This document shows, in pieces, positions 252 through 39,880 of a DNA stretch of 46,131 nt. Both the position numbers and the translations under genes were made by a program. The DNA is taken from IMG/VR virus record IMGVR_UViG_3300021963_004615, positions 1-46,131 of that record; one strand, written 5' to 3'. Source of the stretch: a virus. Below the pieces are notes generated by a model, which saw only the letters and a list, made by a program, of their open reading frames with translations, searched no databases and was not told the DNA's origin. Each line of letters begins with the position of its first letter. The stretch's first letter is position 1.

Positions 252-1542
252 TAAAACAGCTAAAGATTTGATGTTGAAAGAGCCCTATTACGGGTTCTTT
301 CTCATTATGTTGAATAAGTTGTGGAGTAAAAGAATACCTACTGCAGGTGTTAGTAAGAACGGTATCAATTATCAGTTAGTGGTAAATGATGAGTTCTGGG
401 AAAGCTTGACTGATATGCATAGGCTAGGCTTACTTAAGCATGAGCTATTGCATATTGCATTTGGTCATCTTACAACTGTATTTAAGTTTAGTGACAGAAA
501 GTTGGCAAATATTGCCATGGATATGGAAATTAATCAGTATATTGATAGTTCCTGGCTTCCAGGTGGAGAATTAACTCCAGACCAATTCAAACAACTTAAA
601 GAATCTGTTAAAGCTGAATTAGAAACAGCCAAAGAGAATGGTGCTTCTGTTGAAGATCTTCTTGCTATTAGTAAAAAACTTCCTGCAAGAGGTATCATGA
701 TTGATGATTATGCTGAGCTTAATTTAGACAGAAAAGCAGGTGCTAGATACTATTATGATAAACTTAAAGAAGCAAAAGATAAGAAAGATCAAACCGGCTC
801 AAGTGGGTCACCATCATTTGATGACTTATGTGACCAAATGGATGGGGATGCAGATGGTGAAGGCCTACCTGACCACAGTACATGGGATGAGTTTGAGAAC
901 CTTAGCGAAGCAGAACAGAAGCTTATTGATAAGCAGTTACAGAAAGTCCTTGGAGATGCCAAAGAACAAACTCTCAAGAAAAGAGGATCAGTTCCCGGTG
1001 AAATTGAAGGGGTCATTGTCATTGAGGAAATAGTAGCACCTAAGTTTGATTGGAGAGGTTATATCAGAAGATTTACCGGAATCAGCACTAAAGTCTTTAC
1101 TAAAAAGATTAGAAGAAAAGAGAATAGAAGATTCTCTGAAAATCCAGGTCTTAAGATAAAGATGAAACAACACATGTTATTAGCTATTGATACCTCAGGT
1201 TCAGTAAGTGATTCTGAGCTAAAAGAATTTATGAATGAGATTCATCATATCTATAAAGCAGGTGTTGATATTACTATAGTGCAGTGCGATACCAGTATCC
1301 GTAGCATTGAACCTTATAAAGGTAAGAATGACCTTAAAGTACATGGAAGAGGTGGTACTCAATTTGATCCCGTCCTCAATTATTATAATGAAAACAGTAA
1401 AAAGTATACAAGCCTAGTATATTTTACTGATGGAGAGTGTGATGCAAATGTAAAACCAAAAGGTAATGTCCTTTGGGTTATATCAGAGAGATCAGCGTTA
1501 AATGAAGACCTTCCCGGAAAAGTGATCAAACTTGAACTTTAA
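229..1542 (+). CDS. DUF2201-type metallopeptidase / VWA-domain protein
   Basis: A 437-residue protein with two parts. The N-terminal part carries HELLH at residues 71-75, the zinc-binding HExxH of the putative metallopeptidase domain found in DUF2201 proteins. The C-terminal part is a von Willebrand A fold with a MIDAS site, AIDTSGS (Asp321), then GRGGTQF and YFTDGECD. An acidic linker lies between them (around residues 195-230). Such proteins normally partner a MoxR-type AAA+ ATPase, and that partner is encoded just downstream. Known MoxR-VWA pairs act as chaperones or metal-insertion and remodelling machines; the target here is unknown. The last eight residues, GKVIKLEL, reappear at the end of the endonuclease gene that follows. 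The ATG at 229 lies inside the preceding gene. Confidence 0.88.
   Translation: MDKQQSLSKTAKDLMLKEPYYGFFLIMLNKLWSKRIPTAGVSKNGINYQLVVNDEFWESLTDMHRLGLLKHELLHIAFGHLTTVFKFSDRKLANIAMDMEINQYIDSSWLPGGELTPDQFKQLKESVKAELETAKENGASVEDLLAISKKLPARGIMIDDYAELNLDRKAGARYYYDKLKEAKDKKDQTGSSGSPSFDDLCDQMDGDADGEGLPDHSTWDEFENLSEAEQKLIDKQLQKVLGDAKEQTLKKRGSVPGEIEGVIVIEEIVAPKFDWRGYIRRFTGISTKVFTKKIRRKENRRFSENPGLKIKMKQHMLLAIDTSGSVSDSELKEFMNEIHHIYKAGVDITIVQCDTSIRSIEPYKGKNDLKVHGRGGTQFDPVLNYYNENSKKYTSLVYFTDGECDANVKPKGNVLWVISERSALNEDLPGKVIKLEL
1516..1542 (+). repeat. Recoded terminal repeat, copy in VWA gene
   Basis: Last eight codons plus stop of the VWA gene. They encode GKVIKLEL, identical in protein to 2301-2327 at the end of the next gene. 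The two 24-base coding stretches differ at eight positions and every difference is synonymous (for example both Leu codons are CTT here and TTA there). The protein-level identity at two adjacent C-termini looks like a captured or replaced gene end rather than a recent DNA duplication. Confidence 0.7.
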
Positions 1543-1575
1543 TTCCAATTTTATTACTTAATCACATTTTTTATG

Positions 1576-1583
1576 TATATTTG
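1576..1583 (+). promoter_or_regulatory. TAnnTTTG promoter box of the first GIY-YIG gene
   Basis: TATATTTG matches the Bacteroidota -7 consensus TAnnTTTG and lies three bases before the ATG at 1587. A start of transcription at the usual distance would fall at or next to the start codon, giving a leaderless or nearly leaderless message. No convincing -33 TTG box is visible. The same layout precedes the genes at 2815 and 11449. Confidence 0.5.
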
Positions 1584-1586
1584 TAT

Positions 1587-2327
1587 ATGAAGTTAAAACA
1601 TCAAAAACAGGATATACATAAGAAGTGTGGAGTGTATATCATAAGTACAAGTTCCCATAGATACGTGGGTAGCAGTGTTGATATATACTCTAGATATAAA
1701 CAGCATTTAAATTCTCTAAAGAGGGGTAATCATTACAATGAATTTCTTCAAAGAGTGTATAATTTGTATAGAGAAGAAATGACTTTTACTGTTATTGAAT
1801 TTTGTGAAAACTATCTTGAGAAAGAAGCACATTACATTAATTATTATGAATGTGATATCAATGCTGAAAGAGATCCTGTAAGTAGAAAAAAGAGTGAAAT
1901 CACAAAAGAAAAGTTGAGAATGGCTAACACTAATAAAAGGTTAGGTAAGGACAATCATGCTTCAATTAAGGTATATCAATATACGTTAGATGGTTGTTAT
2001 GTAAATGAGTACAGTAGTATAAGGGAAGCTGCATTAGCTGTTAACGGTAATGAGCAGTCCATAGGAGATGCTGCAAGTGGAAATTATAAATCTTCTAGGG
2101 GTTTTCAATGGAGAAAGGAAAAGTTTGATGTTATATCAAGTATTTCTAAGAGAGATAGAAAACCATATTCAATTAAGAAGATTAGCATATTTGATGGAGT
2201 TGAAACAACTGTTGTATCAAGTATTAAAGAAGCTGCACTATTATTAAATGCCAATGAAGGCACAGTTAGAAAAGCTCTTACACATGGATTTAAGTGTAAA
2301 GGCAAGGTAATTAAATTAGAATTATAA
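1587..2327 (+). CDS. GIY-YIG homing endonuclease, free-standing, fused to a gene-end copy
   Basis: 246 residues from the ATG at 1587; a TTG at 1581 in the same frame is less likely because it overlaps the promoter box. The N-terminal nuclease domain shows GVY (residues 15-17), YVG (26-28), an Arg/Tyr/His helix and the metal-binding Glu in LEKEAHYI (about residue 80). Two DNA-binding repeats of the NUMOD1/IENR1 type follow, one around VYQYTLDG and one around SSIKEAALLL. There is no group I intron core in the short spacers on either side (44 and 11 bases), so it is not intron-borne. Its C-terminus GKVIKLEL repeats that of the VWA protein upstream. It separates the VWA gene from its ATPase partner. 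A homing enzyme cutting the VWA gene end is my inference. Confidence 0.88.
   Translation: MKLKHQKQDIHKKCGVYIISTSSHRYVGSSVDIYSRYKQHLNSLKRGNHYNEFLQRVYNLYREEMTFTVIEFCENYLEKEAHYINYYECDINAERDPVSRKKSEITKEKLRMANTNKRLGKDNHASIKVYQYTLDGCYVNEYSSIREAALAVNGNEQSIGDAASGNYKSSRGFQWRKEKFDVISSISKRDRKPYSIKKISIFDGVETTVVSSIKEAALLLNANEGTVRKALTHGFKCKGKVIKLEL
2301..2327 (+). repeat. Recoded terminal repeat, copy in GIY-YIG gene
   Basis: Last eight codons plus stop of the first GIY-YIG gene, encoding GKVIKLEL as at 1516-1542 but with TTA leucine codons and other third-base changes. If the endonuclease cassette entered the VWA gene near its end, this copy would be the displaced original end and the copy at 1516-1542 the one brought in by the cassette. 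The alternative that the DNA-binding repeat ends this way by chance is possible but unlikely for eight residues at matching positions. Confidence 0.65.
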
Positions 2328-2338
2328 AAACAAAAGTT

Positions 2339-2758
2339 ATGAGTCAAGTACAATTGAATGTAGAAGAATTAAAAGATTTTATCAAACACATGGTTAACAA
2401 TAACCAGCATATTCAAGCTCAAGGAAAAGTTCCTGTAGCAATTAACATTGAGGGTGATGCCGGTCTTGGCAAGACTTCTGCTATTATGCAGTTGGGTAAA
2501 GAGATGAATATGCAAGTTGTAAAACTTAATTTATCTCAATTGGAAGAGTTAGGTGACTTGGTTGGTTTTCCTGTGAAAGAATTTGAAATTCAGAATGCTG
2601 AAGGAAAAACTAAATGGATTGGTGAAGCACAAGTACAAATGGCTTTACAAAAAGGTTTTAAAGTTGTGGCTAAGAGAATGTCTCATGCTGCTCCTGAATG
2701 GATTCAAGGTAAAGGTGAGGGTGGCTTCTTAGTATTGGATGACTATACTCGTGCGGAT
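2339..2758 (+). CDS. MoxR-like AAA+ ATPase, exon 1 (N-terminal 140 residues)
   Basis: First exon of an ATPase of the MoxR/dynein-related type. Walker A is GDAGLGKTS (residues 39-47) and Walker B is LVLDDYTRAD (Asp134, Asp135). The frame meets TAA at 2759-2761, the first three bases of a group I intron. Joining base 2758 to 3807 gives DDYTRAD-HRFMQAT, which restores the usual region after Walker B and continues through sensor 1 (ILTTNPDNGDYN) in exon 2. The spliced protein is 389 residues, a normal length. It is the natural partner of the VWA protein encoded upstream. Without splicing only a truncated nucleotide-binding fragment would be made. Confidence 0.88.
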
Positions 2759-2802
2759 TAACAAAATATGCAGTCTAATAGTGTTAGTGTGAATAATTTA
2801 AA

Positions 2803-2810
2803 TATCTTTG
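2803..2810 (+). promoter_or_regulatory. TAnnTTTG promoter box of the intron endonuclease
   Basis: TATCTTTG matches TAnnTTTG and lies four bases before the ATG at 2815, inside the intron. It would let the endonuclease be made from its own short transcript, independently of splicing of the ATPase message. No clear -33 element is seen. Confidence 0.45.
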
Positions 2811-2814
2811 TGAT

Positions 2815-3564
2815 ATGGAAAAATTAAACACACAGACTCTTAAGACAGCATTAAAGAGTATAGGAGTCTATAAAATTAAAATTAATGATAAAGAGTACAT
2901 CGGTAGCTCTTGTAATATTGGTCACAGGTTAAAACACCATTTGTGGTCTCTTGAAAACTTAAAACATCACAATAGAACAATGCAAAACTTGTACAACAAG
3001 TATGGTAAAGAAGAACTTTACTTTACTATTGTAGAAGAGTGTTCAGATGATATTTTAATAGAAAGAGAAGCTTACTACATTAGTACACTTAATCCTTACA
3101 TAAATCATATATTAGATCCACAAACTTTAGTTAGGGATGATATATATAAACAAAGGTTAAGTGCGGCTAAGAAAAAAGCTTATGCAAATGGTTTAAAACC
3201 TCACAATCTTAAAGCAGTACATAAATATTCACTTGATAAAGGTGATTATTTAGAAAGTTTTGAATCTCTTACAGCCGCTGCTAAGTCTATTAATGCTAAA
3301 AGTATTAATGGTATAAAAGCAGTTTGTAAAGGTGATGTATCTTCTGCAGGAGGATTTATATGGTCTTTTACTTATAACATCAATATGTTATATAGACTGA
3401 AAGAGTACAAATTACAACCAGTATTACAATTTACTACTGATAATATTTTTATCAAAAAATGGGAGTCTATAACTGAAGCAAGTAAAGAACTTGGTATCTC
3501 TAATATTAATAGAGCAATATCTAAGGACTTAACTGCTGGAGGGTATAGATGGAAAAAAGCATAA
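2815..3564 (+). CDS. GIY-YIG homing endonuclease inside the group I intron
   Basis: 249 residues. The nuclease domain has GVY (17-19), YIG (28-30), an Arg/His helix (HRLKHHL) and the catalytic Glu in LIEREAYYI. Two NUMOD1/IENR1-type DNA-binding repeats follow: VHKYSLDKGDYLESF with GGFIWS, and VLQFTTDN with GGYRWKK. The stop codon lies only four bases before the guide sequence that pairs with both exons, so the gene occupies almost the whole P1 loop. By analogy with intron endonucleases of this family it should cut intronless ATPase alleles near the codon after Walker B. It resembles the gene at 1587 in architecture but the sequences differ widely, so they are not a recent duplication. Confidence 0.92.
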   Translation: MEKLNTQTLKTALKSIGVYKIKINDKEYIGSSCNIGHRLKHHLWSLENLKHHNRTMQNLYNKYGKEELYFTIVEECSDDILIEREAYYISTLNPYINHILDPQTLVRDDIYKQRLSAAKKKAYANGLKPHNLKAVHKYSLDKGDYLESFESLTAAAKSINAKSINGIKAVCKGDVSSAGGFIWSFTYNINMLYRLKEYKLQPVLQFTTDNIFIKKWESITEASKELGISNINRAISKDLTAGGYRWKKA

Positions 3565-3806
3565 AGCGGGTGGTCCGCAATAAATTCCGTGAATTCAGGG
3601 AAACTCCAGAGATGGACAATCCTGAGCCAAGCCTTATAGGGATATAAGGAAGGTGCAACGACTAGTGTATGGAGTCTAGAACAGACAGTAAAACACCAAG
3701 AGCGCGGAACACATAGAAATATGTGATGATATAGTCTGACCTGTAGATATAATCTAAAAGAAACTACAGAATCATAGGATAAAGAGCCTATGAGTTAACA
3801 ATAATG

Positions 3807-36210: not shown

Positions 36211-39170
36211 TAGTCAATGCGTGTAAAGTTATTGTACAAGTAACTATTCATTTCATCTGCTTGATCCATGTAACCATAGATCATTTGATCTCTGTTGCTT
36301 TCTAGATTTGTCCCATGATACACATTGTTACTCACATATGTAGCTTTCTCAAGAGTACCTTTCTCAGGGTTGTACTGTGGATAGGTCATAGTGATTGTAT
36401 AATCACCTGTTCCTAAATCATTTTTCTCAATCTTGTATGACTTCATTGGATCACCACCAATGTTTTTATAAGTATAACCTTCCTCATGAGTATTTACATA
36501 TGCTTGTAAAGGAGAATCAAATGAAGATCTGTACATCTGATTTTTCATTTTACTAGCATCCATCATAAAGCTCATACCATTTTGTATCAGAGCATTAGCT
36601 TGATCATTGGTTAAATAGTTGTCCTTACCTTTTGTTGATGATCTGTACTGATCAACCCACTCCCTATTTGGTTTAATAATAATAGCACCTTTATTACCTC
36701 TACCACCGGCAATTGGAGATACAGAAATAGTAAATAAACTTAACTTACTGTTTTTACCTTTTTGCATATCAGCCTTCATAGCATCAAGCAAGTATCTCAT
36801 TTCTTTGTTTCTGTTCTTCTCTGTCCAACCATCATAAGCACCTTTACCTATTCCGTTAAAGGTAGCTCTATCAGATTGTCCGTTCCAGTCAAAGTTTTCT
36901 AAGTCTCTTACCACATCATAAAAGTGTGCTTTACCTGCACTGTTTCCTCTAGGATTAACTGTAATACTAGATACTTGTGTACTAGATAAACCAGTTCCAG
37001 GATCAACAGGACCTTTAGTAATTCTTACCGGAGGAGTTACAAGTTTTGGATTAGAATACGCAGCACTTGCTGCTTTTACTAAATCATCATAATTAATTTC
37101 TTTTTCAAATCCTGACTTAGTTTTTATAGTTTCTCCTGTTGTACCCATAGTAAGTGAACTACCACCAACATATGTTTGTACACCTGATGTGCGTTTTGAC
37201 TCTAAATATTCTTTGGGAATATTTGCATAAAACTGTTCTCTGCTTCTTAAATTACCATTCTTATCATATAAGAATTCAGCATATTTAAAGTTCTGTCTTT
37301 TCAAACTTGCTTCAACAGCCTTAGCGGTATTTATTTTCCATTCATCACTACTCTTAGTATAGAGCATGTAGTCATGGAAGTTTGTATTAGCGGATCTTAT
37401 GTCTTTATATAACTGAGTCTTCTGACCATTCCCGGCATTAAATAAATCAGTCTCTCTGTTTGCACCAACCCAAGCATTAAACTCATTTCTGATTTTACCC
37501 ATGTCTTTTTGGCCAATGACATTTCTTGCCCACTGAGCACCATAGGTATTGTACTTATCTTTAAATTCTTTAAAAGTAATCTTTGGATTTTTTGAGTAAC
37601 CAAGAATTTGACTTATCTCAGCATCAGTAATCTTACCTTCTTTTTGTGCTTTTTGTAAAGTAGCAAACATGGTTTTAAAGTACGGGTCAGCAAATTGCTC
37701 ATGGGTCTGTTGGTCAATTTCTCTTGACTTGTTTTTCATGTTGTACTTATCCGTACTGGTACCAGTTTCTAATTGCTCATTGTGAACTTGATGTTGGTCC
37801 TTGTACTCTTTGATTTGTCCATTCTCATCTCTGTAGTGAGTACCGTTTTCTACTAAACCATCCTCATACTTTTCAACCTTAGCTAATTTGCTTTTGTAGT
37901 CAGCTACTCTTTTAGAGGAAGCTTCTCTAGCAGCAAGTAATTGCATACTATTCTTTTGCTTTTCATCTAAGATTGCAAATGGATTAGCTTCAAGGTCTAC
38001 TTCAGAGTGTGTAGTTGCATAAGATACTGCAGCTTCATTTAAGTCTTTCTGCATTAGTAAGCTGGCCATACCATTGTCAACTTTCCATCTGAGTGATTTT
38101 AAATCTCCATAAGGATTAACAAAACCAGTTGTGGTAGTTGCAGTACTAGACTGACCACCATTTAATTCCTTTTGTTGTTCTTCAGCTCTTAATAATACCT
38201 TGTCAACAATCTCTTTGTTCATTTGGTATTGAGCCAACTGTTCTTTAGCAGCAGGACCTGCAGTACCATTTTTGATTTGGTTCTCAATATCCTTGATGTT
38301 AGTAGTTAAGACATTAGAACTTTGTTGAAGAGCTTTGTATCTTGCTACATTCTTTTCCTTAAGAACATTAAATGAGTCCTCAAGATACTTCATCTCTGCG
38401 GCATTCTCATCACCATTAAACTGAGCTGCATTTTGCACAGCATAGTCTTTTCTATCTACATACGCCTGTGTTTTATATACTGCCTGAACTGCAGGATCAT
38501 TACCTAATCTTGCTTCAAATAATCTTTGTAAAGGTTCTGTAAGAGTTTCTCCATTCTTGGTCTTAACAATAAACTTACCGTTGTCTTTAAAGTCAATTCT
38601 TTCAATGGATAAGTCTTCTTTCTTAGCCATCTCATGAGCCTTCTCAACAACATTTATATATGGAGTATACTCAGCATTTTCAAATGACATTGCATCTTCA
38701 GTTGTAGCAGCTTTGAATTCCTTTTTCTTGTACTCCATTGCCCGCATACCATCATCCCAGTACTGCTTTCTTTCTGCTTCATCATAAGAACCTTTTAGTC
38801 CCTGTGCTCTTCCTACTTGATTGTTGAAGTTTTTAGTCCAGGCCATATCCTTCATGAGACCCTTGTCTTCATAGAAAGGTTTAAAAACTTGTGTTGCTTG
38901 GTCTACATTTTGTTCCAATGACAAGTCTAGCTGAGAAACTCTTTTAAGTTCAAACTCAGCATTTTTTAGATAGCCTTCTTTCTTCTCAACATTTTCATCT
39001 CTTGTTAAATCAGCATGATAGTATTGACCATACATTTTATTTAAAGCTTGCCAGTTGTTATCATACTGGGTCTGCTTTGTCTGCATGATATTACCATAAA
39101 AATTCAAGTCCGGTTGGAATGGTTGAAACTGTGGAATATAATCTGTTACGCCCTGGAGGTATGTACTCAT
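36210..39170 (-). CDS. 986-residue probable virion protein
   Basis: Starts MSTYLQGVTDYIPQFQPFQP, a Pro/Gln/aromatic-rich head, followed by long charged helices and, after residue 600 or so, a more beta-rich region rich in Gly/Ser/Thr (TYVGGSSLTMGTTGETIKTK). No catalytic motif is recognised. By gene order (directly before the nuclease-domain and RNA polymerase genes) it is probably packaged in the virion; this is inference from crAss-like phages. The first six residues nearly repeat the start of the GIY-YIG protein encoded just upstream, whose stop codon overlaps this start as TAATG. Confidence 0.88.
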   Translation of the reverse strand: MSTYLQGVTDYIPQFQPFQPDLNFYGNIMQTKQTQYDNNWQALNKMYGQYYHADLTRDENVEKKEGYLKNAEFELKRVSQLDLSLEQNVDQATQVFKPFYEDKGLMKDMAWTKNFNNQVGRAQGLKGSYDEAERKQYWDDGMRAMEYKKKEFKAATTEDAMSFENAEYTPYINVVEKAHEMAKKEDLSIERIDFKDNGKFIVKTKNGETLTEPLQRLFEARLGNDPAVQAVYKTQAYVDRKDYAVQNAAQFNGDENAAEMKYLEDSFNVLKEKNVARYKALQQSSNVLTTNIKDIENQIKNGTAGPAAKEQLAQYQMNKEIVDKVLLRAEEQQKELNGGQSSTATTTTGFVNPYGDLKSLRWKVDNGMASLLMQKDLNEAAVSYATTHSEVDLEANPFAILDEKQKNSMQLLAAREASSKRVADYKSKLAKVEKYEDGLVENGTHYRDENGQIKEYKDQHQVHNEQLETGTSTDKYNMKNKSREIDQQTHEQFADPYFKTMFATLQKAQKEGKITDAEISQILGYSKNPKITFKEFKDKYNTYGAQWARNVIGQKDMGKIRNEFNAWVGANRETDLFNAGNGQKTQLYKDIRSANTNFHDYMLYTKSSDEWKINTAKAVEASLKRQNFKYAEFLYDKNGNLRSREQFYANIPKEYLESKRTSGVQTYVGGSSLTMGTTGETIKTKSGFEKEINYDDLVKAASAAYSNPKLVTPPVRITKGPVDPGTGLSSTQVSSITVNPRGNSAGKAHFYDVVRDLENFDWNGQSDRATFNGIGKGAYDGWTEKNRNKEMRYLLDAMKADMQKGKNSKLSLFTISVSPIAGGRGNKGAIIIKPNREWVDQYRSSTKGKDNYLTNDQANALIQNGMSFMMDASKMKNQMYRSSFDSPLQAYVNTHEEGYTYKNIGGDPMKSYKIEKNDLGTGDYTITMTYPQYNPEKGTLEKATYVSNNVYHGTNLESNRDQMIYGYMDQADEMNSYLYNNFTRID
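39153..39170 (-). repeat. Recoded initial repeat, copy at start of the 986-aa gene
   Basis: First six codons, MSTYLQ (ATG AGT ACA TAC CTC CAG). They match MATYLQ at the start of the GIY-YIG gene (39794-39811) in five of six residues, while the DNA differs at seven of 18 bases. Confidence 0.6.
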
Positions 39171-39811
39171 TATAAATAAATTAAATTAGTATTATTTTTT
39201 CTTTTTCCTAAAATACGTCTTGATAATTCATATTTAGGAATATTTAAAATATTTGATGCAACTGCTAAAGATTCATACACCTCACCTGTAATTATATTTT
39301 TTATAGACTTTTTTTTGTGTGCATTAACAATATTAAAATCTATATCTTTTAATTTTTTTCTAGCTTCTATTAAATTTATCTTGCATTCTTCTGAAGCATT
39401 GTATATTTTACCAGCTTCAATACATGCTGGAGATGGTTTTTTACCTTTATTAATAATTCTTAATTTTTCTTTTGTTTTTTCAGAGTGAACAGACTTACCA
39501 TTAGGATCTGTTGGTTTTAAATTATAACCAATTGATCTATCTAGACAATTAAGTTCATTAACCCAGTAGTGTTCTTTAAAATGTAAATCACTTATATCAC
39601 ATTTTTCAATTATTTCAAAAACAAAGTTTTCTTCACTATACTTATTCCATGCCCTTTGCAAATAACTATTATTATGTTTATCTTTTCTTAAATCATAGAG
39701 ATGTCCATTTATTCTAGTTCTTATGTTAGATGCACAACCAACATATATCTTACCATCAGTTTTACTAGTAATCTTATATATTCCTGGACTTGATTGTAAG
39801 TACGTTGCCAT
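39170..39811 (-). CDS. GIY-YIG homing endonuclease inserted at the head of the 986-aa gene
   Basis: 213 residues. The nuclease domain has GIY (10-12), YVG (23-25), the Arg helix IRTRINGHL and the catalytic Glu region LHFKEHYWV. A NUMOD3-like segment follows (HSEKTKEKLRIINKGKKP), then one IENR1-like repeat (TGEVYESLAVASNIL to RKNNTNLIYL). There is no intron core in the 62-base spacer upstream. It lies in an otherwise unbroken virion-protein operon. The first residues MATYLQ copy those of the gene downstream and the stop overlaps that gene's start as TAATG, so translation of the target gene continues through coupling. No TAnnTTTG box precedes it; it probably relies on the operon transcript. Confidence 0.9.
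   Translation of the reverse strand: MATYLQSSPGIYKITSKTDGKIYVGCASNIRTRINGHLYDLRKDKHNNSYLQRAWNKYSEENFVFEIIEKCDISDLHFKEHYWVNELNCLDRSIGYNLKPTDPNGKSVHSEKTKEKLRIINKGKKPSPACIEAGKIYNASEECKINLIEARKKLKDIDFNIVNAHKKKSIKNIITGEVYESLAVASNILNIPKYELSRRILGKRKNNTNLIYL
39794..39811 (-). repeat. Initial repeat, copy at start of the GIY-YIG gene
   Basis: First six codons of the endonuclease, MATYLQ (ATG GCA ACG TAC TTA CAA). If the element inserted after the sixth codon of the 986-aa gene, this would be the original gene head, now fused to the nuclease. Confidence 0.55.
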
Positions 39812-39853
39812 AATGTGTTTTATCTATAATGTAAAAATATCAACATTTTTTAA

Positions 39854-39880
39854 GTTTACTAAACCTCTGAAGTTTAGAGG
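39854..39880 (-). promoter_or_regulatory. Overlapping small hairpins at the end of the 826-aa gene
   Basis: Read on the minus strand, CCTCT/AGAGG and CTAAAC/GTTTAG form two mutually exclusive stems that include the TAA stop of the 826-residue gene; a further palindrome GTTTAGTAAAC follows. There is no T-run, so it is not a standard terminator. It might dampen or process the transcript before the endonuclease gene. Confidence 0.3.

Follow-up and report, generated by a model that had tools for sequence, protein, structure and literature searches.

Replacement of the end of a gene by a mobile endonuclease gene is known from fungal mitochondria, where endonuclease open reading frames (mORFs) replace the C-termini of atp6, atp9, cox2 and nad3 in Glomus (PMC3630166) and of atp6 and cox2 in Phlebia radiata (PMC4019555); a C-terminus-replacing mORF in atp6 of Allomyces macrogynus is cited in the former study (PMC3630166). 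Some of these replacements differ from the native end by synonymous changes only (PMC3630166; PMC4019555). Among phages, the Seg and Mob endonucleases of T4 are summarized in a review as spreading by intronless homing, i.e., by double-strand-break repair with co-conversion of the flanks, with split host genes exemplified by mobE in nrdA of Aeh1 and mobA in gene 60 (PMC2988022). Further, the ShiLan domain of phage methylases comprises an HNH enzyme encoded in another frame inside the gene, which is read through as an internal loop (PMC11855218).

The window, that is, the whole stretch of viral DNA analysed here (46,131 nt), carries a GIY-YIG endonuclease gene between a VWA gene and an ATPase gene (Table 1). 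Our main reading, to which we assign a probability of roughly 0.9, is that this is a free-standing, non-intron homing element that targets the 3' end of the VWA gene and swaps in a recoded end, with the native end displaced. Like the fungal mORFs, it places an endonuclease gene beside a gene end together with an imported C-terminus bearing mostly synonymous changes, its displaced native C-terminus lies downstream and matches element-free relatives, and it has moved horizontally. It differs from them in residing in a phage rather than a mitochondrion, in encoding a GIY-YIG enzyme where those of Glomus are mostly LAGLIDADG, in having many lineages with empty sites that permit a direct test, in having a gene-start version, and in that, at all 15 element-bearing junctions, the endonuclease reads in frame into the displaced end and has it as its C-terminus. 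By analogy, then, the VWA-end element would work as the mORFs do, a recoded end and a displaced native end being present in both, although we do not file it as a member of that group; the first-pass annotation had named the fungal cases as a partial precedent.

The element resembles T4 Seg in its GIY-YIG enzyme and both Seg and Mob in standing free between genes (PMC2988022). With ShiLan it shares being a mobile phage insertion without splicing, and the first 11 residues of the ShiLan insert resemble the host residues that follow the insertion, the DNA being less similar; however, no terminus is replaced there, and its authors weigh the repeat as a sign of an intron (PMC11855218). A term search of the phage homing endonuclease review (PMC2988022) and of a survey (PMC10448857) returned no recoded or captured termini. 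The first-pass annotation knew of no phage description of gene-end replacement, and none was found in the open-access literature, an absence that is weak evidence; the phenomenon is wider than that annotation supposed, since gene starts are affected as well.

Table 1. Coordinates of the two terminus-replacing elements and neighbouring features in the window.
Feature	Position	Strand	Remarks
Host VWA gene, metallopeptidase/VWA-like protein, 437 aa	229..1542	+	DUF2201_N + DUF2201; imported recoded 3' end
Recoded replacement end, LPGKVIKLEL-stop	1510..1542	+	10/30 synonymous differences to L004
Element signature core, CTT GAA CTT TAA	1531-1542	+	CTT GAR CTT: 15/15 filled, 0/146 empty
Element leader, 44 nt	1543..1586	+	91-100% conserved between lineages; better than endonuclease
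GIY-YIG homing endonuclease gene, 246 aa incl. 8 borrowed residues	1587..2327	+	contains a GIY-YIG domain, a NUMOD1 domain and, C-terminally, another NUMOD/HTH-like unit
Displaced native VWA end, GKVIKLEL-stop, in-frame endonuclease C-terminus	2301..2327	+	27/27 identical to L002-L004 VWA ends
Native spacer VWA to ATPase, 11 nt	2328..2338	+	11/11 identical to L002, L003; as in empty relatives
AAA/MoxR-like ATPase gene, 5' exon, native downstream neighbour	2339..2758	+	weak Pfam AAA
Recoded start of 986-aa gene, MSTYLQGV	39147..39170	-	ATG AGT ACA TAC CTC CAG GGC GTA
Mirror element GIY3 endonuclease, 213 aa	39170..39811	-	native start MATYLQ of the next gene makes up its codons 1-6 (39794-39811)

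The native end lies behind the endonuclease

Both the VWA ORF (229-1542) and the GIY-YIG ORF (ATG at 1587, stop ending at 2327) terminate in GKVIKLEL, encoded by GGA AAA GTG ATC AAA CTT GAA CTT in the former and by GGC AAG GTA ATT AAA TTA GAA TTA in the latter. The 8 differences in 24 bases are all synonymous, as had been noticed at first reading, and this kind of duplicated end is found at 15 distinct junctions with the element. Three relatives lacking the element, L002, L003 and L004 (L numbers denote loci), encode VWA proteins 97, 96, and 97% identical to that of the window. Their VWA genes end GGC AAG GTA ATT AAA TTA GAA TTA TAA, with the ATPase gene 11 nt further on, and positions 2301-2338 of the window reproduce this end and spacer letter for letter, so that the empty-site end matches the endonuclease tail exactly and runs straight into the ATPase leader, as the first-pass annotation had predicted. 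By contrast, the window's own VWA end differs from that of L004 at 10 of 30 bases (1510-1539), all synonymously, directly after 74 identical bases (1438-1511). Because the empty ends match the tail and the VWA end of the window departs from them after this identical stretch, the native end is the one behind the endonuclease and the VWA end is imported. The recoding was originally placed at 1516-1542; it does exist, but against L004 it is slightly longer, beginning at base 1512 within the LPGKVIKLEL codons.

The empty sites thus support the scheme first proposed, in which the element inserted before the last VWA codons, fused in frame to the displaced end and supplied a recoded one. The insertion point lies between the codons for ...LP and those for GKVIKLEL, the displaced native end completing the endonuclease in frame, and the element itself consists of the recoded last VWA codons with their stop, a leader of 43-46 nt, and an endonuclease ORF without last codons of its own.

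Two other explanations can be weighed against these observations. A short strand following a glycine is a frequent ending of NUMOD-type domains (cf. residues 172-180), and the shared peptide might be due to chance or convergence, but this is refuted by the exact DNA match to empty-site genes and by its recurrence in 15 junctions, where Q and H variants are matched on both sides. Alternatively, the insert might be a group I intron or an intein whose 5' end resembles the 3' exon, as is often the case for group I introns, and indeed the adjoining ATPase gene has a group I intron that harbours a GIY-YIG gene. We regard this as highly improbable, since no Rfam intron was matched in 1500-2340 at a permissive threshold and the recoded end has its own stop, which gives a complete VWA protein without splicing; a group I ribozyme core (RF00028) was not found at the insertion in that interval by the same method that detects one at 3521-3756.

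Distribution and mobility of the element

A scan with the VWA protein yielded 80 loci, and copies of the element were sought both by the endonuclease protein and by the leader pattern. Of 174 distinct VWA-ATPase junctions surveyed, 15 are filled, 146 are empty, and 13 are others. The filled junctions represent 13 endonuclease lineages with 61-100% endonuclease identity and a constant length of 246 aa. Every member of the endonuclease family retrieved by the protein and leader searches is located at the VWA 3' site; the first-pass annotation had considered that related GIY-YIG genes with the GKVIKLEL tail might occur at unrelated sites, and none did among those retrieved. A weak match in L109 (37% over 78 residues) was set aside as a different GIY-YIG gene without such a tail. 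In bacterial genomes, the leader pattern gave four matches in genome contigs, none with the junction or the endonuclease, and these were judged to be chance. Likewise, VWA-ATPase spacers of 166-193 nt (L031, L042, L142, L196, L225, L231, L270, and L272), compared with the usual 10-20 nt, were rejected as VWA-end elements; those of L031 and L042 contain a small ORF.

At the filled junctions (n = 15), the two ends differ at 5-9 of 27 nt and by at most one amino acid each, and the K, Q or H residue of the tail always equals that of the new VWA end. Close filled/empty pairs show the tail to be native: it is identical at 27/27 bases in L104/L130 (with a spacer identical at 10/10) and in L107/L275, at 26/27 in L084/L146 (VWA 99.0%), and at 24/24 after the first codon in L113/L163 (VWA 98.7%). 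On their left side, the changes in such pairs start no more than about a dozen codons before the gene end. The tails of L049, L092, L093, L108, and L114 are 3-7 bases away from the nearest sampled empty end, which may reflect sampling or drift. The other parts behave differently, as the window and L084 are alike in endonuclease DNA (97%), leader (100%) and recoded end (97%) but less so in the VWA body (79%) and ATPase DNA (83%). Tails therefore track the host lineage, and the recoded end and the leader track the endonuclease. Since the recoded end moves with the element, it is imported in each recipient and not made afresh.

In a tree of 161 VWA proteins, built with the gene endings removed, the presence of the element requires 14 changes for 15 filled rows (mean with shuffled labels, 14.5), and the element must therefore be highly mobile. 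It has moved into the same VWA site between phage lineages many times. Another scenario has an endonuclease gene insert first, the gene end around it then duplicate locally in tandem, and one copy drift under protein selection, which would likewise leave two gene ends that encode the same peptide and differ synonymously. It is nevertheless very unlikely, because the tail is that of the empty-site host in each well-sampled lineage, the new end is that of other carriers with distant hosts, and independent drift per lineage would not arrive at the same CTT GAR CTT each time.

Significance of the recoding and proposed mechanism

All 15 filled VWA genes end in CTT GAA/GAG CTT TAA, compared with none of the 146 empty ones, and so the observation that would have spoken against the first-pass model, an empty gene ending like 1516-1542, was not made among them. 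The recoded core and the first leader bases are conserved at 16-18 of 18 positions in lineages whose endonuclease fourfold sites are as low as 35-74% identical.

Whether the recoding protects the element is a separate question. It is possible, though we put it somewhat below even odds, that the element is as described but that its recoding has no protective role. The synonymous changes would then have built up naturally in the VWA end of an ancient donor phage and have come along by co-conversion, as has been argued for the fungal mitochondrial cases. Consistent with this, between-lineage variation in the upstream, LPGKVIK part of the tract is like that of ordinary VWA genes, and L084 also imported non-synonymous differences (DS to ED). 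In addition, L105 has only three recoded bases in the last ten codons relative to its nearest empty relative, L205, so that the recoding seen elsewhere may for the most part stem from divergence of the donor and not from a need. Against it, all 13 lineages share CTT GAR CTT without exception, even where endonuclease identity is as low as 61%; this core is more conserved than neutral endonuclease sites and is absent from the 146 empty genes.

Under the reading of a homing element with a protective recoded end, and judging from the endonuclease family, the enzyme would cut empty VWA ends during co-infection, and repair would then copy the element into the cut end. The carrier would be immune, as the recoded end would no longer be a target and the displaced native end would lack the left half of the site. 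The replacement end would keep the VWA protein intact, while the retained native end would preserve the upstream region of the ATPase gene.

The native ends show a bias of their own. TTA occupies the first of the two Leu codons in 141 of 146 empty genes, compared with 26% of Leu codons in VWA bodies, and TTA GAA is thus nearly fixed, far beyond Leu codon usage, which suggests a DNA or RNA constraint at the gene end.

Anatomy of the element and its endonuclease

The endonuclease contains a GIY-YIG domain (PF01541, 26.4 bits, cutoff 22.6), and its nearest solved structures are those of the I-TevI catalytic domain (profile E 4e-8; fold TM 0.78 on target). The resemblance to I-TevI thus holds for the catalytic domain by sequence and fold; I-TevI, however, is encoded in a group I intron, and there is none here. 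With this domain and its sporadic presence at a single site, the protein has the features of a GIY-YIG homing endonuclease, as far as sequence can tell. An AF2 model (mean pLDDT 71) folds tail residues 240-245 into a beta-strand that closes the C-terminal domain and corresponds in position to strand 174-180 of the first NUMOD unit. The borrowed peptide thus probably contributes to the structure of the enzyme.

A motif scan of the leader found TATATTTG at 1576-1583, 3 nt before the ATG, which would correspond to a promoter box of the Bacteroidota type TAnnTTTG. The same box stands just before the start of the intron endonuclease at 2815, and in the window such boxes lie 3-5 nt before an ATG at 1576, 2803, and 11438; if these are promoters, they would yield leaderless or nearly leaderless mRNAs. 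The viruses with the VWA-end element probably infect Bacteroidota bacteria. An I-TevI-like translational lock formed by a leader hairpin was considered and rejected, because a strong hairpin (-20.6 to -26 kcal/mol) is confined to the clade that comprises the window, L049, L084, L087, L088, and L093 and is absent from other lineages. A promoter explains the conservation of the leader better than a hairpin does.

The mirror arrangement at gene starts

On the minus strand of the window (39147-39873), a second endonuclease, GIY3, has captured the native start and the upstream region of a 986-aa gene, which now has a recoded start. GIY3 begins ATG GCA ACG TAC TTA CAA (MATYLQ), as does the 986-aa gene in the empty relative L303, with 18/18 bases and the preceding 83 bases identical. 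The native start in L303 reads ATG GCA ACG TAC TTA CAA GGT GTC, from which the recoded start differs at 9 of 24 bases, followed by near identity. This arrangement recurs in 4 further loci with 58-85% GIY3 identity, although the replaced start is still MATYLQ in L365 and L377; of the roughly 50 distinct junctions compared, the majority are empty. Three other loci (L309, L327, and L360) have about 560 nt extra between the two genes, upstream of the 986-aa gene homologue, without homology to GIY3.

A comparable case is found in gut crAss-like phages. In cr125_1 and cr114_1 (the pair L285/L289), an endonuclease begins ATGATTAGTAATACAGCTCAA (MISNTAQ) and the next gene, for a virion structural protein, begins ATGATATCAAATACATTTCAA, its own start being recoded as MISNTFQ. 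The virion gene of cr4_1 (L284) is 97% identical from base 10 on and begins ATGATTAGTAATACAGCTTAG; L286 and L287 are empty at this site. The endonuclease carries the native virion gene start MISNTAQ, and the gene itself has been given a recoded one. The endonucleases of Buchavirus cr109/cr113 and of cr52, and crAss001 gp37/gp41, had no clear swapped terminus when inspected by eye. In cr6_1 (L290), an endonuclease at 2420-3133 begins MEIN (ATGGAGATAAAT) and the next gene, from 3112 onward, also begins MEIN (ATGGAAATCAAT), possibly a further start-side case with a shorter repeat.

Terminus swaps thus affect the VWA gene at its 3' end, the 986-aa gene at its 5' end and, in gut crAss-like phages, a virion gene, again at its 5' end. 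We consider it likely that these cases belong to a general class of phage homing elements that swap termini. Such elements would insert in frame near either end of a gene, complete their own ORF with the native terminus (and, at gene starts, with the native upstream region as well), and give the gene a recoded terminus that restores the protein and blocks re-cutting. Introns and inteins let a selfish endonuclease reside inside a conserved target gene without disrupting it; the element does so in a third manner, by bringing a spare recoded end, with no need for splicing. The many parallel cases with matching empty sites make the roles of recoding, cut site, and co-conversion testable, and the element accounts for odd duplicated termini of a kind that would be overlooked or wrongly called in automated annotation.

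The host VWA gene and its neighbours

The VWA gene, with its two domains (PF13203, E 3.6e-14; PF09967, E 6.2e-17), is an essential-looking gene whose conserved 3' end is targeted by the element. An AlphaFold model of its product (pLDDT 66, last residues <50) is too weak to judge the role of the last strand. In PHROG phrog_1314 and in many phage records, this gene goes under the name 'HNH endonuclease', which is probably an annotation error. The protein encoded by the ATPase 5' exon has 100% aa identity in L002 and L003, where it starts 11 nt after the VWA gene. The ATPase gene is interrupted at about 2760-3803 by the group I intron (RF00028 at 3521-3756, 83 bits), which carries its own GIY-YIG gene (2815-3564), and in L058, L061, and L070 another GIY-YIG insertion is present in the ATPase gene after about codon 42.
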